The position numbers and the translations under genes are program-made. This document shows, piece after piece, positions 10,857 through 17,858 of a DNA stretch of 64,000 nucleotides (positions within the stretch are counted from its first letter, which is position 1; each line of letters begins with the position of its first letter). The notes under the pieces were generated by a model. The model saw only the letters and a list, made by a program, of their open reading frames with translations. It did not search any database and was not told where the DNA came from. The stretch comes from Glutamicibacter sp. JL.03c. Its GTDB lineage: Bacteria; Actinomycetota; Actinomycetes; Actinomycetales; Micrococcaceae. The stretch lies in contig NZ_CP107575.1 in NCBI RefSeq assembly GCF_025854375.1, positions 2,294,001 through 2,358,000 on the forward strand, written 5' to 3'.

Positions 10857-11383
10857 ATAGTCCCGGCTGATGCTTCTGCGCCGCAGCCAAGCTGTCGGCG
10901 CCAGATCCGCGAGGCGGATTCCACGGTCCCCTGTCGATGGGGTGCCACCTGGCTCGTGGGCTGATAGCCCATCTTCTTCCAGAATGGTTCAGCAACGTCC
11001 GCATTTGCATCCACGATGGCAAGCCGAAGGCAGCACAGGCCTTCGGCTCCGCGCAACTCCGTGACGATGGATTCATGCAGCCTTCGTCCAAGTCCCTCGC
11101 CAACCCGCTCGGAGTCGGTCATGAGCAGCCCGATATGCGCGGTCTCTGGCTCGGGCCAGCCAATGATGACATCTGCGAAGGCCAGCAATCGGTTGCCTTC
11201 TCACAATCCATAACCACGCTTCTGGGCGGCAACAGCGCTGGGTGGCAGCGCCGTGAGCGCTTCCTGCGCCGCTCCGGGCTCAACGCCATGGCCCCGGATG
11301 CGCACTGCATAGCCTGCGTTGGATTCCATGAGCCGTTGCAAAGCGCGCGCATCCTGAAGTCCCACGAGCCCGAACACGCTCAT
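10853..11383 (-). pseudogene. GNAT N-acetyltransferase with in-frame premature TGA
   Basis: Reading from ATG 11383, a GNAT-type protein runs for 60 residues to AAQKRGYGL and then meets TGA at 11201-11203. It continues in the same frame as EGNRLLAFADVIIGW through ERVGEGLGRRLHESIV (acetyl-CoA loop) to a normal stop at 10853, 176 codons in all. A Trp (TGG) at the stop would give a perfect enzyme, so one base explains the break. The start overlaps the stop of the methyltransferase gene by 4 bases (ATGA), so the two formed an operon. A sequencing error is possible. Confidence 0.8.
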
Positions 11384-12102
11384 GCTGCCCGCGCTTCAAA
11401 AATCATGACCGCTTGGCTTCCGTCAAATGGTGTCCGGTTCCAGTCACCCCTGATTGCGTCGACCTTGAATCCAGCTGCCTGCAACTGGACTTCCAGTTGT
11501 TCGACGGTGCGGAAGGCCAGCACCTGGTCTTCCTGCACTGTTGCTCCCGGGGTCGCGAATTTCGAGAATGATTCCAGGAGTATCTTCCCTTCGCTGAGTT
11601 CTTGAACCTGGCACCATTCGGTCACCGGGCCAAATGGCGTGTCTTTGGTGGATGGCTCTTCGCGCGCCCAGGATTCCCACGCTCGCCGTTCCGGGTTTCG
11701 GCTTTCAAAGGCGAGAACAGATCCGGAGGACAGGCTGCGCCTCAAATCCTGCAAGGTTCGTTCCCACTGCTGGTCCGGAATGTGCTGCACCACGTTACCC
11801 GACAGGACCGCCAAGTCGAACAGCCCATGATCAAGGGCGCGTGAGTCGCCCTCGACCCATAGGACTTCGCTAGCGCCGGATCGCTGGCGGGCATAGTCAA
11901 GCATGGCCGGCGATGGATCCATGCCCACGACTTCACGCCCTTCCTGCGCCAAGGTGACGGTGAGAATTCCGGTACCGCAACCGAGATCCAATATGCGCCG
12001 CACGCCAGGCTGAGCGGCGAGGGATCGGTAGTAGTCGTGGTCGGGCCCGTCAGGATTTTCTCCGTCGTACATCGCGACAATTCGAGGGTCGTAATCAGTC
12101 AA
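11380..12102 (-). CDS. class I SAM-dependent methyltransferase
   Basis: This 240-residue methyltransferase has the SAM-binding motif ILDLGCGTGILT near residue 37, an acidic loop VVGMDPSP, a post-I region and FDLAVLSGNVVQHI. The C-terminal part carries a beta-rich substrate cap. The substrate is unknown. It lies upstream of, and is coupled to, the interrupted GNAT gene, and directly downstream of the glyoxalase-family remnant. The 5' neighbourhood was therefore probably rearranged when the island arrived. Confidence 0.85.
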   Translation of the reverse strand: MTDYDPRIVAMYDGENPDGPDHDYYRSLAAQPGVRRILDLGCGTGILTVTLAQEGREVVGMDPSPAMLDYARQRSGASEVLWVEGDSRALDHGLFDLAVLSGNVVQHIPDQQWERTLQDLRRSLSSGSVLAFESRNPERRAWESWAREEPSTKDTPFGPVTEWCQVQELSEGKILLESFSKFATPGATVQEDQVLAFRTVEQLEVQLQAAGFKVDAIRGDWNRTPFDGSQAVMIFEARAA

Positions 12103-12210: not shown

Positions 12211-12366
12211 GCGTAGCCCCTTGGCCGTCGGGCAGCCTGAATGCGCCTGTACGCAGTGATTGTTAACTTCATACGGCGGTTGAATCGTAACGCTGGGTGG
12301 CGGCTGGCCACCTCGAACCATCTGTTTGCCTTGAGTATTTCAGGTTTGGAATACACCTTTGCAGGA

Positions 12367-13632
12367 TCATACCTTCTTAGACGATTCAAAGTCCGTTCGT
12401 CCTGCTGACAGGCTCTTTTTAACATCGAACCGATGGGAAACAGTGAGAAAAGCTAAGGGTCCCAACAATAAAATCCAGCCACCAACAAGTAATAATGAAT
12501 TCGTAGGCAAGGACGCTCCGAGAAATCCACACAGGGCATATCCGACTGGCAACAGTCCAAAGCTGACAGCATAGTCAAGAGAGGAGAACTTACCCAGATG
12601 TTCTTCGGGAACGCGCGTTTGAAGAGCTGAGCCCCATGCTACGCCCGATATTTCCAACCCCAGTCCTGCGACAATCGCAGCTAGACACCACCACAACGGC
12701 TGTGCAAATGCCGCCAGCGCGAAATTGGGCAAACTGCACAAAGCAAAAAAACCAACGCTCGCAGTGAGCAAGAATTTCTCGACCTTCCACTTGGCGCATA
12801 AAAGGCTTCCGATCAGGTAACCCACAGCCAACGCAGCTGCCATCGCACCATAGGAGGCCGGGCCAGCTTTACTTGTTGCAGCTATTGGTTGTAATACCGA
12901 TGTGAAGCCAGATTGCAGTGCTAAGAAGAGAGCCCAAAATAGCAGTAAGTAACCAAACCAACGCTGGTCTTTCAAAGCTGAAAATGCAACACGGATGTCC
13001 TTTTTAATGCCTTCACTTCTAGCGGCCACCCCAGAGATCCTGACTGGCAGAATGCAAAGCGCAGAGCAAACGAAGAACACAGAGCTCAACGCGATGCCGG
13101 AAGTCGTCTGGAATGTTGTGCTGACAAAGGTTGCAAGAATAGGACCCAGCAATGAGCCGGCATTACGGAAGGTTCTAACGACAGCATTTGCCCTGAAATT
13201 GTTCTCGGCGCTTACAACACTAGGGAGCAATGTATACAGGGCAGGAGCGCCAAACGCAGAAATGAATCCACTGGCTAGGGAGATCACTTGTGTTATTGGT
13301 CCAAGCCCTTGATGCACTACCGAGAATAGCGTGGCAACATTTAGTACGGCTACACCAAGTAGTGTCAGGATAGCCAATAATTTTCTAGACCATAAGTCGG
13401 CGGCGACTCCACCGAAAAGTGCAATTACGACTGTCGGTATGGTGCGGGCCGCCAATACGAGACCAAGACCAAGGAAGTCACCATTTTGCCCGGCCAAGAG
13501 GGCAAGTGAGATTGCGAAGACGGATGTTCCGAAGCTCTGTAATCCTTGTGACACCGCAAGGAGCCACACCGCTGCCTTGTTGCTTGAGGGTAGCGGTGTG
13601 GCTTCTTGCGTCAGGGAGACTTTTTCTTTCAA
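12367..13632 (-). CDS. MFS transporter (12 TM, drug-efflux type) paired with QueC-like gene
   Basis: This 421-residue membrane transporter with about 12 hydrophobic segments resembles MefA/enterobactin-exporter-like MFS proteins. An MFS motif A-like loop, FGGVAADLWSRK, follows the second helix. Its ATG overlaps the stop of the QueC-like gene by 4 bases, so the two are translated together and probably act together, for example by exporting the product or importing a precursor. Codon use and base composition are visibly more A/T-rich than in neighbouring genes, a sign of transfer. The substrate is unknown. Confidence 0.85.
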   Translation of the reverse strand: MKEKVSLTQEATPLPSSNKAAVWLLAVSQGLQSFGTSVFAISLALLAGQNGDFLGLGLVLAARTIPTVVIALFGGVAADLWSRKLLAILTLLGVAVLNVATLFSVVHQGLGPITQVISLASGFISAFGAPALYTLLPSVVSAENNFRANAVVRTFRNAGSLLGPILATFVSTTFQTTSGIALSSVFFVCSALCILPVRISGVAARSEGIKKDIRVAFSALKDQRWFGYLLLFWALFLALQSGFTSVLQPIAATSKAGPASYGAMAAALAVGYLIGSLLCAKWKVEKFLLTASVGFFALCSLPNFALAAFAQPLWWCLAAIVAGLGLEISGVAWGSALQTRVPEEHLGKFSSLDYAVSFGLLPVGYALCGFLGASLPTNSLLLVGGWILLLGPLAFLTVSHRFDVKKSLSAGRTDFESSKKV

Positions 13633-14339
13633 AGTGAATTTGGCTCCAACACCTGTGCAAATTCGTTGATGTACAGAGTCGGATCTTTAATTCCATTCAC
13701 CGCGAATGCTCCAGCTCGCTCATGGCAAGTGGGGCAGGTTCCACAGTGGGCTTCGAGCCCTTTCCCGCAACTCCACGTTTCATTGAACGGCACCTCCAAT
13801 GAGGCACCCTTCGCGAACACCTCGTGTTTACGAATGCTGATATATGGAGTGTGGAACTTAATGCGGAATTGCTCACCTTCGCACTTACTTGTTACATCTG
13901 AAAGCAAGGAGAAGTAATCGAGTTTGTTGTCTGCGAAACGAGCATCTTCAGCATGAACAGCGTAGAAAACGTCTTCGATACCATTCTTCACTGCCCACGA
14001 TGCGGCCAGTAAGAGCGCAATACTTGAACCAAACGGCTGAATGTCTTTGCTTTCATTGACTGGCGGGGTTTCCATGGTGGTCCACTGCGCCCCGCGCATG
14101 AATTGTGGTTGGTTCAGCCCATAGAATTCCTTCAATGGACCCGAGAAATCGAAGAAATGATGTTCAACCCCTACCCTTCCAATAATTGATTTCGCGGCAA
14201 TGAGTTCTTTGTAACCTTCGGCTTCACCAAAATCGAAAGTGAGTGCAACAACCTCACGACCTTGGTCGATCAGATCAAAAAGGAGTGTGCTGGAATCAGG
14301 GCCTCCAGAGAAGAGGAGGGCTACTTTCTTATTCGTCAT
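13629..14339 (-). CDS. QueC-like 7-cyano-7-deazaguanine synthase family protein
   Basis: This 236-residue ATP-pyrophosphatase of the QueC family carries the PP-loop LLFSGGPDSSTLLF near residue 10 and a C-terminal four-cysteine zinc site WSCGKGLEAHCGTCPTCHER, as in QueC. QueC turns 7-carboxy-7-deazaguanine plus ammonia and ATP into the nitrile preQ0. The family segments VPGRN and TDFSGYPDCR (by recall) are replaced by QPFGSS and EDARFADNKL, so the substrate pocket differs. No queD, queE or folE is nearby. ATG 14339 is chosen as the start because AGGA lies upstream. It is coupled to the MFS gene. A non-queuosine role is inferred. Confidence 0.82.
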   Translation of the reverse strand: MTNKKVALLFSGGPDSSTLLFDLIDQGREVVALTFDFGEAEGYKELIAAKSIIGRVGVEHHFFDFSGPLKEFYGLNQPQFMRGAQWTTMETPPVNESKDIQPFGSSIALLLAASWAVKNGIEDVFYAVHAEDARFADNKLDYFSLLSDVTSKCEGEQFRIKFHTPYISIRKHEVFAKGASLEVPFNETWSCGKGLEAHCGTCPTCHERAGAFAVNGIKDPTLYINEFAQVLEPNSL

Positions 14340-14686: not shown

Positions 14687-15311
14687 GTGAGACATTTGGG
14701 ATACACGCGCGTGAGCACTTCGAGCCAAGACTCGGCCTTGCAGCTCGATGCCCTGGTTGCTTCAGGGGTGCAGAAGCGCGACGTGTTCGCCGACGTGACT
14801 TCCGGCAGCCGCAGCGCGATCGATCGGCCCGGGATGAAGAAGCTGCTGGACTATGCCGAAGCCGGCGACACCGTCGTGGTGTGGCGGGTTGACCGGCTGG
14901 GCCGCTCCCTGATCGATGTCTTGAATACCGTGAACCTTTTGCAGGGGGCGCGGGATTACTGTCCGCTCCATTTCCGATGGCATCGACCCGGCCACATCGA
15001 CCGGTCGGATGATGCTGAACATGCTTGCTTCGTTGGCCGAGTACGAGCGCGAATTGATCGTTGAACGAGTCAACGCCGACATTGCCGCCGCCCGGCAATC
15101 CGGAACCCGTTTCGGCCGGTCGGTCTCGGACCCGGCGGTGATTGCCGACAAGCTCGCGATCGCCAAAGATGCCCGCGCCAGGGGACGCACCGCCGAAGAC
15201 GCCCGCGCCAGGGGACGCACCGCCGAAGACGCAGCACGCATGGTTGGCTGGAGCCGCGCAACGTTCTACCGCCACTTGGGCCAAGAGCCCGCATCTTCCA
15301 AGAGTCTGTGA
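14687..15311 (+). pseudogene. serine resolvase/invertase, frameshifted
   Basis: The N-terminal part starts at GTG 14687 with YTRVSTSSQDSALQLDAL, holding the catalytic Ser, and runs through VVVWRVDRLGRSL. The C-terminal part, in another frame, reads RGITVRSISDGIDPATSTGR then LASLAEYERELIVERV and a helix-turn-helix ending WSRATFYRHLG. The break is at a run of five G at 14944-14948. Removing one G joins the two parts exactly. No recombinase other than the fused product would be functional. This may be a dead copy, a homopolymer error or, less likely, programmed frameshifting. Confidence 0.8.
15171..15230 (+). repeat. two exact tandem copies of a 30-bp unit in the resolvase DNA-binding region
   Basis: Positions 15171-15200 and 15201-15230 are identical. 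In the protein this gives ARARGRTAED twice, directly before the helix-turn-helix. The unit is in frame, so it only lengthens the linker by ten residues. It is a recent duplication, because no base differs between the copies. Confidence 0.9.
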
Positions 15312-15317
15312 TCGGCC

Positions 15318-16826
15318 ATGTCCCTGCGAAGCGAAACGCGCAGGGACGTACCGCTGGGGCAAGACCAGATTGGCAGCAATACCGAGAAAGCAGGAACTCC
15401 TAGTGACTACCTGGCTAAAGCAACAGCACGTTGGGAAATACTGCGGCAACACGTCGAAGACGGAGTGCCGTTGACGGTTCTGGCAGGGGAACACCATATC
15501 GGCCTGAGGACAATGCAGCGATGGCACCAGAGCTTCAAGCTCCACGGGAAGCCTGGTCTGGAACCGGTGGCACCGGGCAAACGCGGACGCCGGATGCCCA
15601 GCGAATTCGTGAACCTGGTCGAAGGCCTCGTCTTAGCTAAACCGCCCAGGACTACGGCAGCCATCCACGAACAAGTCAACAAGGTAGCGCTCCACCAAGG
15701 ATGGGCACCGGTTTCCTACTCCACCGTCCGCTCGATCGTCGGCGCGATAGATCCGGGGATGATGACGCTGGCGCAGCAAGGTACGGCGGTGTACCGCGAT
15801 AAATATGAATTGGTCTGGCGCCGCCGCGCCGAACGTCCGAACGCGGTGTGGCAGGCCGATCATACCGGGCTCGACATCCTGGTTTTTGGCTCTGGCCACC
15901 AGTCCGTCCGACCGTGGCTCACCACGATCATGGATGATTACTCGCGAGCCCTCTGCGGGTACATGCTCTTCACCGGTGCTCCCTCATCCTTGAATACGGC
16001 ATTGGCGTTGCGTGAGGCGATCTGGCCCAAAAAGACAGTAGATTGGGCGATGTGCGGAATCCCTGATGTGCTCTATGTCGACCACGGAACCGATTTCACG
16101 AGCCACCACTTGGCGCAGGCCGCCCGAGACCTGCACTTCGAAATCATTTTCTCCGCTGTGGCCCGGCCGCAGGGCAGGGGAAAGATTGAACGATTCTTCG
16201 GCACCCTCAACACCGAATTCTTAGCCCGGCTGCCCGGCTACTTGCACAATGCGCGCAACCCCAAGCCGGGGCTGTCCATCGGTGAACTGGACATGGCGCT
16301 GGGTGAGTTCATTGGGCAGAACTACCACCAGCGCGAGCACCAAGAGATCAAGGAAACGCCTCAAACAGCGTGGCAGGGCAACGGTTGGTTACCACGTCTG
16401 CCTGAAACCATCGATGAACTGAACCTGCTGCTGCTCACGGTCGCCAAGCCACGGATCGTCCACCGCGTTGGCGTGCATTTCCAAGGGCTACGCTACATTT
16501 CACCGTTGCTGGCTGCCTACGTCGGAGAATCCGTCATTCTCCGCTATGACCCGCGGGACGTTGCCGAGATCCAGGTCTTTCACCGTGGCCAGCTCATCTG
16601 CAAAGCCGTGGATCCCGTGCATGAACGAGCCACAGTGACGTTCAAGGACATCCAGAAGCCACGCTCCGCACGCAAGCGTCAATTGCGCGGACAAATCAAA
16701 GAACGAATCGCCGCCGTCGCAGAATTTCTACCGGCCGGGCAACCAGCAACGGAGGTATCCCAGCCTGATCCGGCGGTCCACCGAGCGCAGAAAACGAAGT
16801 TGCGCACCTACGCAGAGGACGAATAA
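15318..16826 (+). CDS. Mu/TniA-type DDE transposase
   Basis: This 502-residue transposase has, in order, an N-terminal helix-turn-helix (VLAGEHHIGLRTMQRW), an RNase H-like catalytic core with Asp in WQADHTGLD, Asp in LYVDHGTDF and Glu in GRGKIERFFGTLN, and a Mu-type C-terminal beta-barrel near residues 390-430. It catalyses strand transfer together with the ATPase encoded next. The start at 15318 has no good ribosome site and lies at the edge of a hairpin. Translation may depend on the upstream resolvase frame. The gene looks intact. Confidence 0.88.
   Translation: MSLRSETRRDVPLGQDQIGSNTEKAGTPSDYLAKATARWEILRQHVEDGVPLTVLAGEHHIGLRTMQRWHQSFKLHGKPGLEPVAPGKRGRRMPSEFVNLVEGLVLAKPPRTTAAIHEQVNKVALHQGWAPVSYSTVRSIVGAIDPGMMTLAQQGTAVYRDKYELVWRRRAERPNAVWQADHTGLDILVFGSGHQSVRPWLTTIMDDYSRALCGYMLFTGAPSSLNTALALREAIWPKKTVDWAMCGIPDVLYVDHGTDFTSHHLAQAARDLHFEIIFSAVARPQGRGKIERFFGTLNTEFLARLPGYLHNARNPKPGLSIGELDMALGEFIGQNYHQREHQEIKETPQTAWQGNGWLPRLPETIDELNLLLLTVAKPRIVHRVGVHFQGLRYISPLLAAYVGESVILRYDPRDVAEIQVFHRGQLICKAVDPVHERATVTFKDIQKPRSARKRQLRGQIKERIAAVAEFLPAGQPATEVSQPDPAVHRAQKTKLRTYAEDE
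15320..15347 (+). repeat. inverted repeat covering the transposase start
   Basis: GTCCCTGCG and CGCAGGGAC form a perfect 9-bp inverted repeat separated by 10 bases, beginning at the third base of the transposase ATG. In mRNA this would fold over the start codon. It may damp transposase translation or be a leftover terminator of the resolvase gene. Function is inferred only. Confidence 0.5.
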
Positions 16827-17638
16827 TGGCACCTTCAACTTTTATCGCAACAAAGGCGCATCGCCGCTTCACTGAGTTCGCCAATGCTGTGCGCCGGCAG
16901 CGGACCATCGGGATCTGCTACGGACAAGCTGGAATCGGCAAAACCCTCTCGGCTAAACGCTATGCCAACTGGAGCCCGAAAGCCGCGGCATTAGTAGAGG
17001 AATGGGGTCGCTTGGAGGACAGTGACCTCCAAATCTATAAGGATCTAGCCAAAACGCGGACCGTCTTCTTCACCCCAGGGGTATTGACGACACCTAAGCA
17101 AATCAAAGAAGAGCTCTCACTGATCACTAATCGGACCTCGATCGGCATTCACCAACATCTCGATACTGTAGGCGTCACGAACGGTCCGATGAATCAAGAC
17201 AAGCATGTGGAGCTGATCATCGTCGACGAGTCGGAACGACTCAACGCCACTGCCTTGGAAGTGCTGCGAGATAGGTATGACAGGAACAATATCGCTCTGA
17301 TGCTGATTGGGATGCCCGGCATAGAAAAGCAGTTCAGCCGATATCCTCAGCTCTATAGCCGTGTCGGCTTCGCCCACGAATACCGTCCGCTTGCGCAGGA
17401 TGAACTGCATTTCGTACTGCAACGAAAGTGGCGTGCCCTCGGCAAAACCCTGGATTTGGAGGACTTCACCGATACGCAAGCTGTCGCGGCGATCGCGCGC
17501 ATCACGCGCGGTAATTTCCGGCTGATTGATCGGCTCTTCGCACAGATGCAGAGGGTAATGAAGATCAGTGAGCTGGACACAATTACCGATGACGTTGTTG
17601 AAGCAGCGCGTTCCACGCTCGTTATCGGAATCGGTTGA
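16826..17638 (+). CDS. TniB/MuB-like AAA+ transposition ATPase
   Basis: This 270-residue ATPase has Walker A CYGQAGIGKTLSAKRY near residue 33, Walker B ELIIVDESERL near residue 133 and a sensor region LMLIGMPGIEKQ. Proteins of this kind select target DNA and activate the DDE transposase. The start overlaps the transposase stop by one base (TAATG), so translation is coupled. The gene looks intact. The 220 bases that follow hold the presumed right end and no gene. Confidence 0.88.
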   Translation: MAPSTFIATKAHRRFTEFANAVRRQRTIGICYGQAGIGKTLSAKRYANWSPKAAALVEEWGRLEDSDLQIYKDLAKTRTVFFTPGVLTTPKQIKEELSLITNRTSIGIHQHLDTVGVTNGPMNQDKHVELIIVDESERLNATALEVLRDRYDRNNIALMLIGMPGIEKQFSRYPQLYSRVGFAHEYRPLAQDELHFVLQRKWRALGKTLDLEDFTDTQAVAAIARITRGNFRLIDRLFAQMQRVMKISELDTITDDVVEAARSTLVIGIG

Positions 17639-17858
17639 ACCGCCCTGAGTAGCTGCGCGAAAACCGCCAAATCAAGCTAACAGTCACAGCCTGTGCGCAG
17701 AGCGGATAATCCGTCGGAGCCCATCGCCATCCTTCCTCGTCCATTCCGTGTTTCAGGAAGCACTGTCGCCAGGTTCAGCCTACCTCTCCCCATGGTCTCC
17801 GGGCCTTCGGACTTCAGCTTTCATGGCCAAGGATCCAGTACGCGTGCAGAATGGGCTT

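Follow-up and report, generated by a model that had tools for sequence, protein, structure and literature searches.

Gene pair at the locus

The stretch of DNA analyzed here (64,000 nucleotides of Glutamicibacter sp. JL.03c, positions 2,294,001 to 2,358,000 of contig NZ_CP107575.1, referred to as the window) carries a gene for a QueC-like N-type ATP pyrophosphatase and, directly behind it on the same strand, a gene for a transporter of the major facilitator superfamily (MFS). Judged by sequence, the QueC-like protein is not a preQ0 synthase, and the gene pair is the cargo of a transposon. The two genes are as follows, with coordinates, here and below, given as positions within the 64-kb window.

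13629..14339, minus strand: QueC-like N-type ATP pyrophosphatase with a Cys4 zinc site; ATG start, 236 amino acids (aa); member of a non-canonical clade
12367..13632, minus strand: MFS transporter; TTG start, 421 aa; scores above the Pfam cutoffs for MFS_1 and MFS_3

The initial annotation of this DNA had described a QueC-like open reading frame (ORF) that overlaps an MFS gene by 4 bases, is A/T rich compared with its neighbors, keeps the ATP-pyrophosphatase loop and four-Cys zinc site, and departs from QueC at the VPGRN and YPDC segments, and each of these points was borne out. The ORFs have bases 13629 to 13632 in common. G+C content is 0.48 to 0.52 at ∼12.2 to 14.7 kb, compared with 0.60 to 0.64 at 9.0 to 12.2 kb and 0.60 to 0.65 at 14.75 to 16.2 kb, i.e., 0.60 to 0.65 on both immediate sides. 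The loop reads SGGPDS, Cys 191, 199, 202, and 205 are present, and the two divergent segments read QPFGS and FADN. The QueC-like protein matches the Pfam QueC family with 117.9 bits (cutoff, 22) and the transporter matches MFS_1 with 92.7 bits (cutoff, 33.4). The transporter also has matches to TIGR00900 and to the Tet(V), Mef, and EntS models, none of which reaches its cutoff.

Active site and family membership

The QueC-like protein scored 106 bits against TIGR00364, for which the curated cutoff is 150.3. All six clade members scored gave 71 to 110 bits, compared with 185 to 214 bits for three of three controls. Synthesis of preQ0 by Escherichia coli QueC depends on Y35, R99, Y131, and Y189, with Y131F being partly active (PMC13329287). 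Across the eight complete clade proteins, Y35 is replaced by F or L, R99 by G, and Y189 by G, A, or T without exception, Y131 is F in seven and Y in one, N100 is replaced by S or A, and C134 is replaced by N. At the four essential positions the window protein has F, G, F, and G. The SGGxDS loop, K165, and the four zinc cysteines are nevertheless kept in all eight.

Among other QueC proteins, all four canonical residues are present in 129 of 132, and Y35, R99, and Y189 are each kept in 131 of 132; the proteins without one or more of the four are L043, L114, and L191. These 132 proteins were not drawn at random from the QueC family: 95 are viral loci (found by a zinc-motif DNA pattern), 28 are loci from Actinomycetota, 7 come from elsewhere, and 2 are PDB chains, and QatC and Cap9 are not among them. 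Excluded from the comparison were 26 loci with partial matches (three of which are the G033 locus described below) and 17 exact duplicates. Residues were numbered via chain 2pg3, a Pectobacterium protein, and the motifs fall at the positions given in PMC13329287.

Three identities were considered for the protein and rejected. Canonical QueC was rejected on the score below the TIGR00364 cutoff, the replaced essential residues, and the long-stemmed clade (see below). QatC was rejected on a score of 16 bits against a cutoff of 280 (16 to 38 bits in six of six clade members); the QatA, QatB, and QatD models likewise had no match among the eight window neighbors scanned with PADLOC. Cap9 of type IV CBASS retains the motifs Y/FxQ(x)5E, RN, and YxDC (PMC13329287), and this identity was rejected because no CD-NTase was found among the scanned neighbors and the RN and YxDC motifs are lost.

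An AlphaFold model of the protein (predicted local distance difference test, 87.7; predicted template modeling score, 0.86) has QueC 3bl5 (TMq, 0.69), QueC 2pg3 (0.69), and Cap9 9nto (0.65; third row) as its closest structures, i.e., TMq of 0.65 to 0.69. These are followed by TtuA, NcsA, argininosuccinate synthetase, and YcfA at TMq of 0.41 to 0.56. For YcfA itself, TMq is 0.52 to 0.56, with 13 to 17% identity in the structural alignments. No YcfA chain was among 20 sequences found up to an E value of 10, a search for which the presence of YcfA in the searched set is unchecked.

Clade, relatives, and distribution

The clade is rare and was found in 5 of 396 genomes of the order to which the window belongs, the window genome and G033 included. 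Identity to the window protein (alignment A4) is 59% for G1700, 49% for G1473, and 36% for G1609, and that of G033 is 39% over the open piece. The G033 locus (L010 6583-8453) holds a QueC-like gene broken by an in-frame TAG and a frame change, with an open, different MFS gene behind it. Outside this order, proteins with 41 to 44% identity to the window protein occur in Bacillus canaveralius, in Bacillus glycinifermentans (on a plasmid and on a GO-13 contig), and on two viral contigs, which we take to be SPbeta-like. The clade is therefore carried by a transposon (in the window), a plasmid (in B. glycinifermentans), and viral contigs.

Further searches added few members. In a search of the phylum, 169 of 396 genomes matched at an E value of 0.001, the window protein with 395 bits and all others with ≤127 bits, and 29 of the other matching genomes were taken as loci. 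Genome searches on the Bacillus side returned only known carriers (1 of 193, 1 of 44, and 1 of 398 genomes). Scans of genome contigs gave no locus with a single-sequence query and two with an alignment query, and three alignment-based viral scans gave only L015, L016, and the remote L017. When plasmids were searched with the L225 and L224 proteins, the same B. glycinifermentans record was again the sole one above 35% identity (among the best 8 of 169 and the best 8 of 191 matches, respectively). A C-terminal DNA motif was tried as a marker and rejected, as many ordinary QueC genes are among the matches listed and it is not clade specific.

The clade had a support of 100/100 and a long stem in an unrooted tree with 30 other QueC proteins. 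The cluster-4-like row L215 was left out of that tree for its long branch but included in another, also unrooted, tree of 47 rows (5 clade members and 42 others), where the clade again had a support of 100/100. Because it attached there beside eight other QueC-type rows (96/98), the clade probably arose from within QueC. The initial annotation had named grouping inside canonical QueC, with queDEF elsewhere in the genome, as a result that would speak against it; what was obtained is a separate clade, below the QueC cutoff, and no QueD.

The QueC-like protein is the sole PF06508 match in the 3.59-Mb window genome. The initial annotation had seen no queD, queE, or folE in the window, and for queD the absence extends further, as QueD (PF01242) had no match in the whole window genome or in the four other Micrococcales carriers, while 9 of 14 control genomes match; there is thus no visible route to 7-carboxy-7-deazaguanine in these five carriers. 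The QueE model (TIGR03365; cutoff, 206) gave a best score of 23 bits in the window genome and no match in G033; being of the B. subtilis type and passed by only 1 of 14 control genomes, it makes for a weak test. TGT is present in the window genome. B. canaveralius and B. glycinifermentans have QueD and QueE above cutoff, and their other QueC proteins (L050 and L062) retain the complete set of four residues. Since QueD and QueE are present there, the clade protein in these Bacillus genomes is an extra.

Neighboring genes

The pairing on which the initial annotation had built recurs in homologues: an MFS gene lies directly downstream on the same strand in five of five Micrococcales genomes found with the clade (window, G1700, G1473, G1609, and G033). 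The other refuting outcome named in that annotation, an MFS partner that is not conserved, was not obtained. BLAST E values of 4e-32 to 8e-104 mark four of these five MFS proteins as clearly related; the window MFS has identities of 46% (303 bits) to that of G1700, 38% (224 bits) to that of G1473, and 33% (124 bits) to that of G1609, for which a start inside a longer open frame was chosen. The MFS of G033, which adjoins the broken QueC-like gene, differs from the other four (E value of 0.04). Against plasmid records, the top score of the window MFS was 92 bits (among the best 20 of 40 matches). No other common neighbor was found next to the Micrococcales pairs among ORFs of ≥60 aa; genes read as thiolase, aminotransferase, and LacI type match between these loci, but at other places.

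In B. canaveralius, the gene order is QueC-like, ABC ATPase, ABC-2-like permease, and HIT (HinT-like), the last three overlapping; the ABC2_membrane match of the permease (23.5 bits) is just under the cutoff of 26.9. The window MFS and the B. canaveralius ABC ATPase resemble efflux families, with every NCBIfam match below cutoff. In B. glycinifermentans and on both viral contigs, a short remnant, consisting of the start of the ATPase and the end of the permease, lies between the QueC-like and HIT genes.

L007 14301-14549: ABC exporter remnant between QueC-like and HIT genes; annotated as hypothetical protein
L015 10748-11026: ABC exporter remnant, same position
L016 10755-10971: ABC exporter remnant, same position

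The sequence just upstream of the QueC-like gene in the Bacillus and viral loci is promoter-like by eye. The B. glycinifermentans plasmid has, in addition, two MFS genes (L007 9512-11988 and 16037-18537; 71% identical), each followed by a Rap-type TPR gene, which flank the QueC-like and HIT genes. These pairs may perhaps mark the copy as quorum-controlled cargo; no such flanking MFS/TPR genes were seen by eye near the viral copies.

Transposon and gene junction

The following features surround the pair.

12245..12256, plus strand: imperfect direct repeat of 12 bp (11/12) at the flanks of the element, left copy; single copy in G210
12257..12281, plus strand: left terminal inverted repeat, 25 bp, 20/25 identical to the right one
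14687..15311, plus strand: serine resolvase in two overlapping frames (14687-15064 and 15009-15311); profile scan of the first frame alone
15318..16826, plus strand: TniA/TnsB-type transposase, 502 aa; rve and Mu-transpos_C
16826..17638, plus strand: TniB/TnsC-type AAA ATPase, 270 aa; profile matches
17662..17686, minus strand: right terminal inverted repeat, 25 bp, 20/25 identical to the left one
17689..17700, plus strand: right copy of the 12-bp direct repeat (11/12)

The element has the features of a TniA/TniB transposon (a transposase with rve and Mu-C, an AAA partner, a resolvase, terminal repeats, and a relative without the element), presumably of the Tn402/Tn5053-like type. Compared with G210 of the same genus, which has 94.7% identity to the window in the left flank and 92.9% in the right flank, the ∼5.4 kb between 12256 and 17689 is extra DNA. 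G210 in turn has a 1.16-kb stretch directly left of the transposon site (L211 3914-5079) that is not in the window. The initial annotation had placed the pair in an island beside a transposon; the transposon stands, but the pair sits between the element's own inverted repeats rather than beside it. The QueC-like and MFS genes are the only recognized genes inside the element besides those for transposition and resolution. The right part of the transposon has a G+C content of 0.53 to 0.59.

The shuffle control of the terminal repeats used a pattern derived from both ends themselves and is not independent. Independent support comes from L212, where an end like that of the window transposon, one mismatch from the common pattern (0.01 expected), lies behind a related transposase. 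A single recombinase gene adjoins that transposase, and the resolvase gene spread over two frames in the window looks frameshifted and may be broken. No classic 5-bp target duplication was found at the element ends, which have the imperfect 12-bp repeat instead, so that the exact ends given above are provisional. Among plasmid-borne relatives, the transposase is closest (88.8% identity) to one in Arthrobacter sp. YC-RL1, which adjoins rhodanese, MBL-fold, sulfite-exporter, and MFS genes; these are neighbors and not established as cargo. Just outside the window transposon, a methyltransferase gene (11380-12102, minus strand) matches the PADLOC mad2 model with 62 bits, which is probably a generic methyltransferase match.

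The junction of the two cargo genes holds one further feature.

13555..13610, minus strand: inverted repeat, possible mRNA hairpin; two 22-nucleotide arms, 91% complementary, with a 12-nucleotide spacer; just within the MFS frame near the gene junction

Over 131 nucleotides of the junction, the folding energy is −44.7 kcal/mol (z, −3.1; 1 of 200 shuffles was equally good), and the hairpin could act as an attenuator of the pump gene. A promoter scan of the window gave no sites.

Proposed function

We suggest, with a probability of roughly 0.4, that the pair is a mobile, self-contained enzyme-plus-exporter cassette, comparable to a miniature nucleoside-antimetabolite cluster. We predict the following. 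(i) The QueC-like enzyme would adenylate a small metabolite, probably one resembling a nucleobase or nucleotide, at a carboxylate or ring carbonyl. (ii) The adenylated group would then be replaced, giving an amide, nitrile, or similar group and a toxic or signaling analogue. (iii) The exporter would release the analogue and protect the producer. (iv) In Bacillus, the HIT protein may hydrolyze the nucleotidyl intermediate or a by-product, as HinT-type proteins cleave nucleotidyl conjugates. With its two to four genes, such a cassette would work like a scaled-down version of the 6-thioguanine and 7-deazapurine antibiotic clusters, whose parts are of similar kinds. A fuller version is more tentative and rather doubtful: that this is a new mobile clade of QueC-derived synthetases that make a previously unknown nucleobase- or nucleotide-like antimetabolite in one step from an ordinary metabolite, export it by a dedicated MFS or ABC pump, and travel on a transposon, a plasmid, and SPbeta-like prophages. 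The two-gene make-or-modify-and-export unit of the initial annotation finds partial support in the non-canonical clade and the recurring MFS partner, and its function is what we infer.

Several observations weigh against the proposal, and our estimate is held down mainly by the first. The ABC exporter has decayed in three of the four Bacillus and viral copies. The QueC-like gene is nevertheless under purifying selection there, with a ratio of nonsynonymous to synonymous substitutions (dN/dS) of ∼0.035 to 0.09 (NG86 counts, three Bacillus/viral pairs with unsaturated dS); the enzyme can therefore be useful without a linked exporter. Selection on the HIT gene is somewhat weaker (dN/dS of ∼0.14 to 0.26 by the same counts). 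A search for HIT genes in the 64-kb window and at the other four Micrococcales loci found none, and no cysteine desulfurase or sulfur-donor family was found among the six window neighbors scanned with Pfam. No conserved small ORF was seen by eye upstream of the QueC-like gene in the four Bacillus and viral loci; the idea of a microcin C-like peptide precursor was rejected for this reason. The YcfA structure match stands beside matches to many other ATP pyrophosphatases (137 chains in all at an E value of ≤0.001). Finally, PADLOC matches to defence-listed models, including that of the B. canaveralius HIT protein to the ThsC-type HIT model (47 bits), also count on this side.

The same decay bears on a role in detoxification or self-protection, which is unlikely but retains real weight. 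Here the QueC-like enzyme would modify an incoming toxic carboxylate or nucleotide-like compound by amidation or adenylylation, the pump would remove it, and the Bacillus HIT protein would cleave nucleotidyl conjugates. Conservation of the QueC-like and HIT genes where the ABC exporter has decayed fits this role as well as or better than it fits production and export. Carriage by transposon, plasmid, and viral contigs with a sporadic distribution is as expected of such a role, and the below-cutoff matches of the MFS to Tet(V), Mef, and EntS and the rhodanese, sulfite-exporter, and MFS genes adjoining the related transposase of Arthrobacter YC-RL1 (not established as inside the element) point the same way. 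However, the matches of the QueC-like protein include no family of resistance enzymes, and ATP-dependent amidation is an unusual resistance chemistry.

The remaining explanations appear disfavored by the active site and the neighborhood. A protein-modifying enzyme of the QatC/Cap9 kind, which would deazaguanylate the N terminus of its target, or some other function in phage defence is improbable. Such modification is carried out by QueC-fold proteins in both Qat and type IV CBASS (PMC13329287 and PMC11996544), the PADLOC QueC model matches the window protein with 70.8 bits, and Cap9 9nto is among the best structures. The carriage by mobile elements, the ThsC match of the B. canaveralius HIT protein, and the mad2 match of the methyltransferase outside the element would fit as well. 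Against this, all six clade members scored remain far below the QatC cutoff, no CD-NTase or QatABD was found among the eight scanned neighbors, and YxQ, RN, and YxDC, which Cap9 keeps (PMC13329287), are not kept by the clade. The five Micrococcales carriers, moreover, have no QueD, and the constant partner is a transporter.

Salvage of queuosine precursors, with the MFS importing a 7-deazaguanine precursor that the enzyme converts for TGT, is very improbable. It would suit a genome with TGT and without a QueD match, and an MFS protein of Bartonella henselae imports preQ0 and preQ1 (PMC11130926). The residues essential for preQ0 synthesis are lost, however, and B. canaveralius and B. glycinifermentans, which own QueD, QueE, and a full-residue QueC, need no second QueC. 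Most gut Actinomycetota are, in addition, predicted to salvage queuine, bypassing QueC (PMC11130926). An ordinary canonical QueC acquired by transfer, with the MFS as a chance neighbor, is hardly credible and largely contradicted by the score under the curated cutoff, the lost residues, the long-stemmed clade, and the adjacent MFS in all five Micrococcales loci, despite the Pfam QueC match, the many QueC genes carried by phages, and the possible origin of the clade within QueC.

If the fuller version of the proposal is true, the pair would be among the smallest make-and-export units for a nucleobase- or nucleotide-like antimetabolite. A two-gene unit is easily expressed and offers a short route to new ATP-dependent chemistry, and perhaps to interbacterial metabolites of a new class or to a novel mechanism of resistance. 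We recognized no description of a QueC-like/exporter unit in searches of the open-access literature, and in a term search, the words MFS, transporter, exporter, and HIT did not occur in the main text of the family survey published in 2026 (PMC13329287).

Comparison with known systems

The protein shares its fold, size, SGGxDS loop, Cys4 motif, and K165 with canonical QueC (TIGR00364; PF06508 cluster 1 of PMC13329287). Unlike canonical QueC, it has Y35, R99, N100, Y131, C134, and Y189 replaced, a constant exporter partner, and a genome without a QueD match. Cap9 and QatC are, like it, QueC-fold proteins recruited outside tRNA modification, and Cap9 is close in structure. In contrast to these systems, the window pair has no CD-NTase or QatABD among its scanned neighbors and a transporter as partner, and its active-site motifs differ from those published for Cap9.

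The 6-thioguanine operons ycf of Erwinia amylovora and tgs of Staphylococcus chromogenes are likewise small cassettes with an ATP-pyrophosphatase-fold enzyme; they also encode nucleotide hydrolases, to which tgs adds an efflux protein (PMC7994395). The hydrolase of the clade, however, is HIT rather than Nudix and is absent beside the Micrococcales pairs, and no cysteine desulfurase is among the scanned neighbors. The toyocamycin and tubercidin clusters offer either a QueC-type enzyme (ToyM) or genes for an exporter and a hydrolase (the MFS TubI and the Nudix TubG of the tubercidin cluster; PMC6112128). Unlike the window pair, to which none are linked, 7-deazapurine clusters carry base-making genes, such as the queE, queD, and folE annotated in L214. 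That plasmid region of Streptomyces angustmyceticus (L214 1254-10094) also holds QueC, two oxygenase-type genes, and an ATP-grasp gene and is a possible 7-deazaguanine natural-product cluster. The likeness of the pair to the 6-thioguanine cassettes is one of architecture only. QueC has been recruited repeatedly, for antibiotics, for DNA modification, and for protein modification in phage defence, and the clade described here looks like a further such recruitment, this time coupled to exporters.

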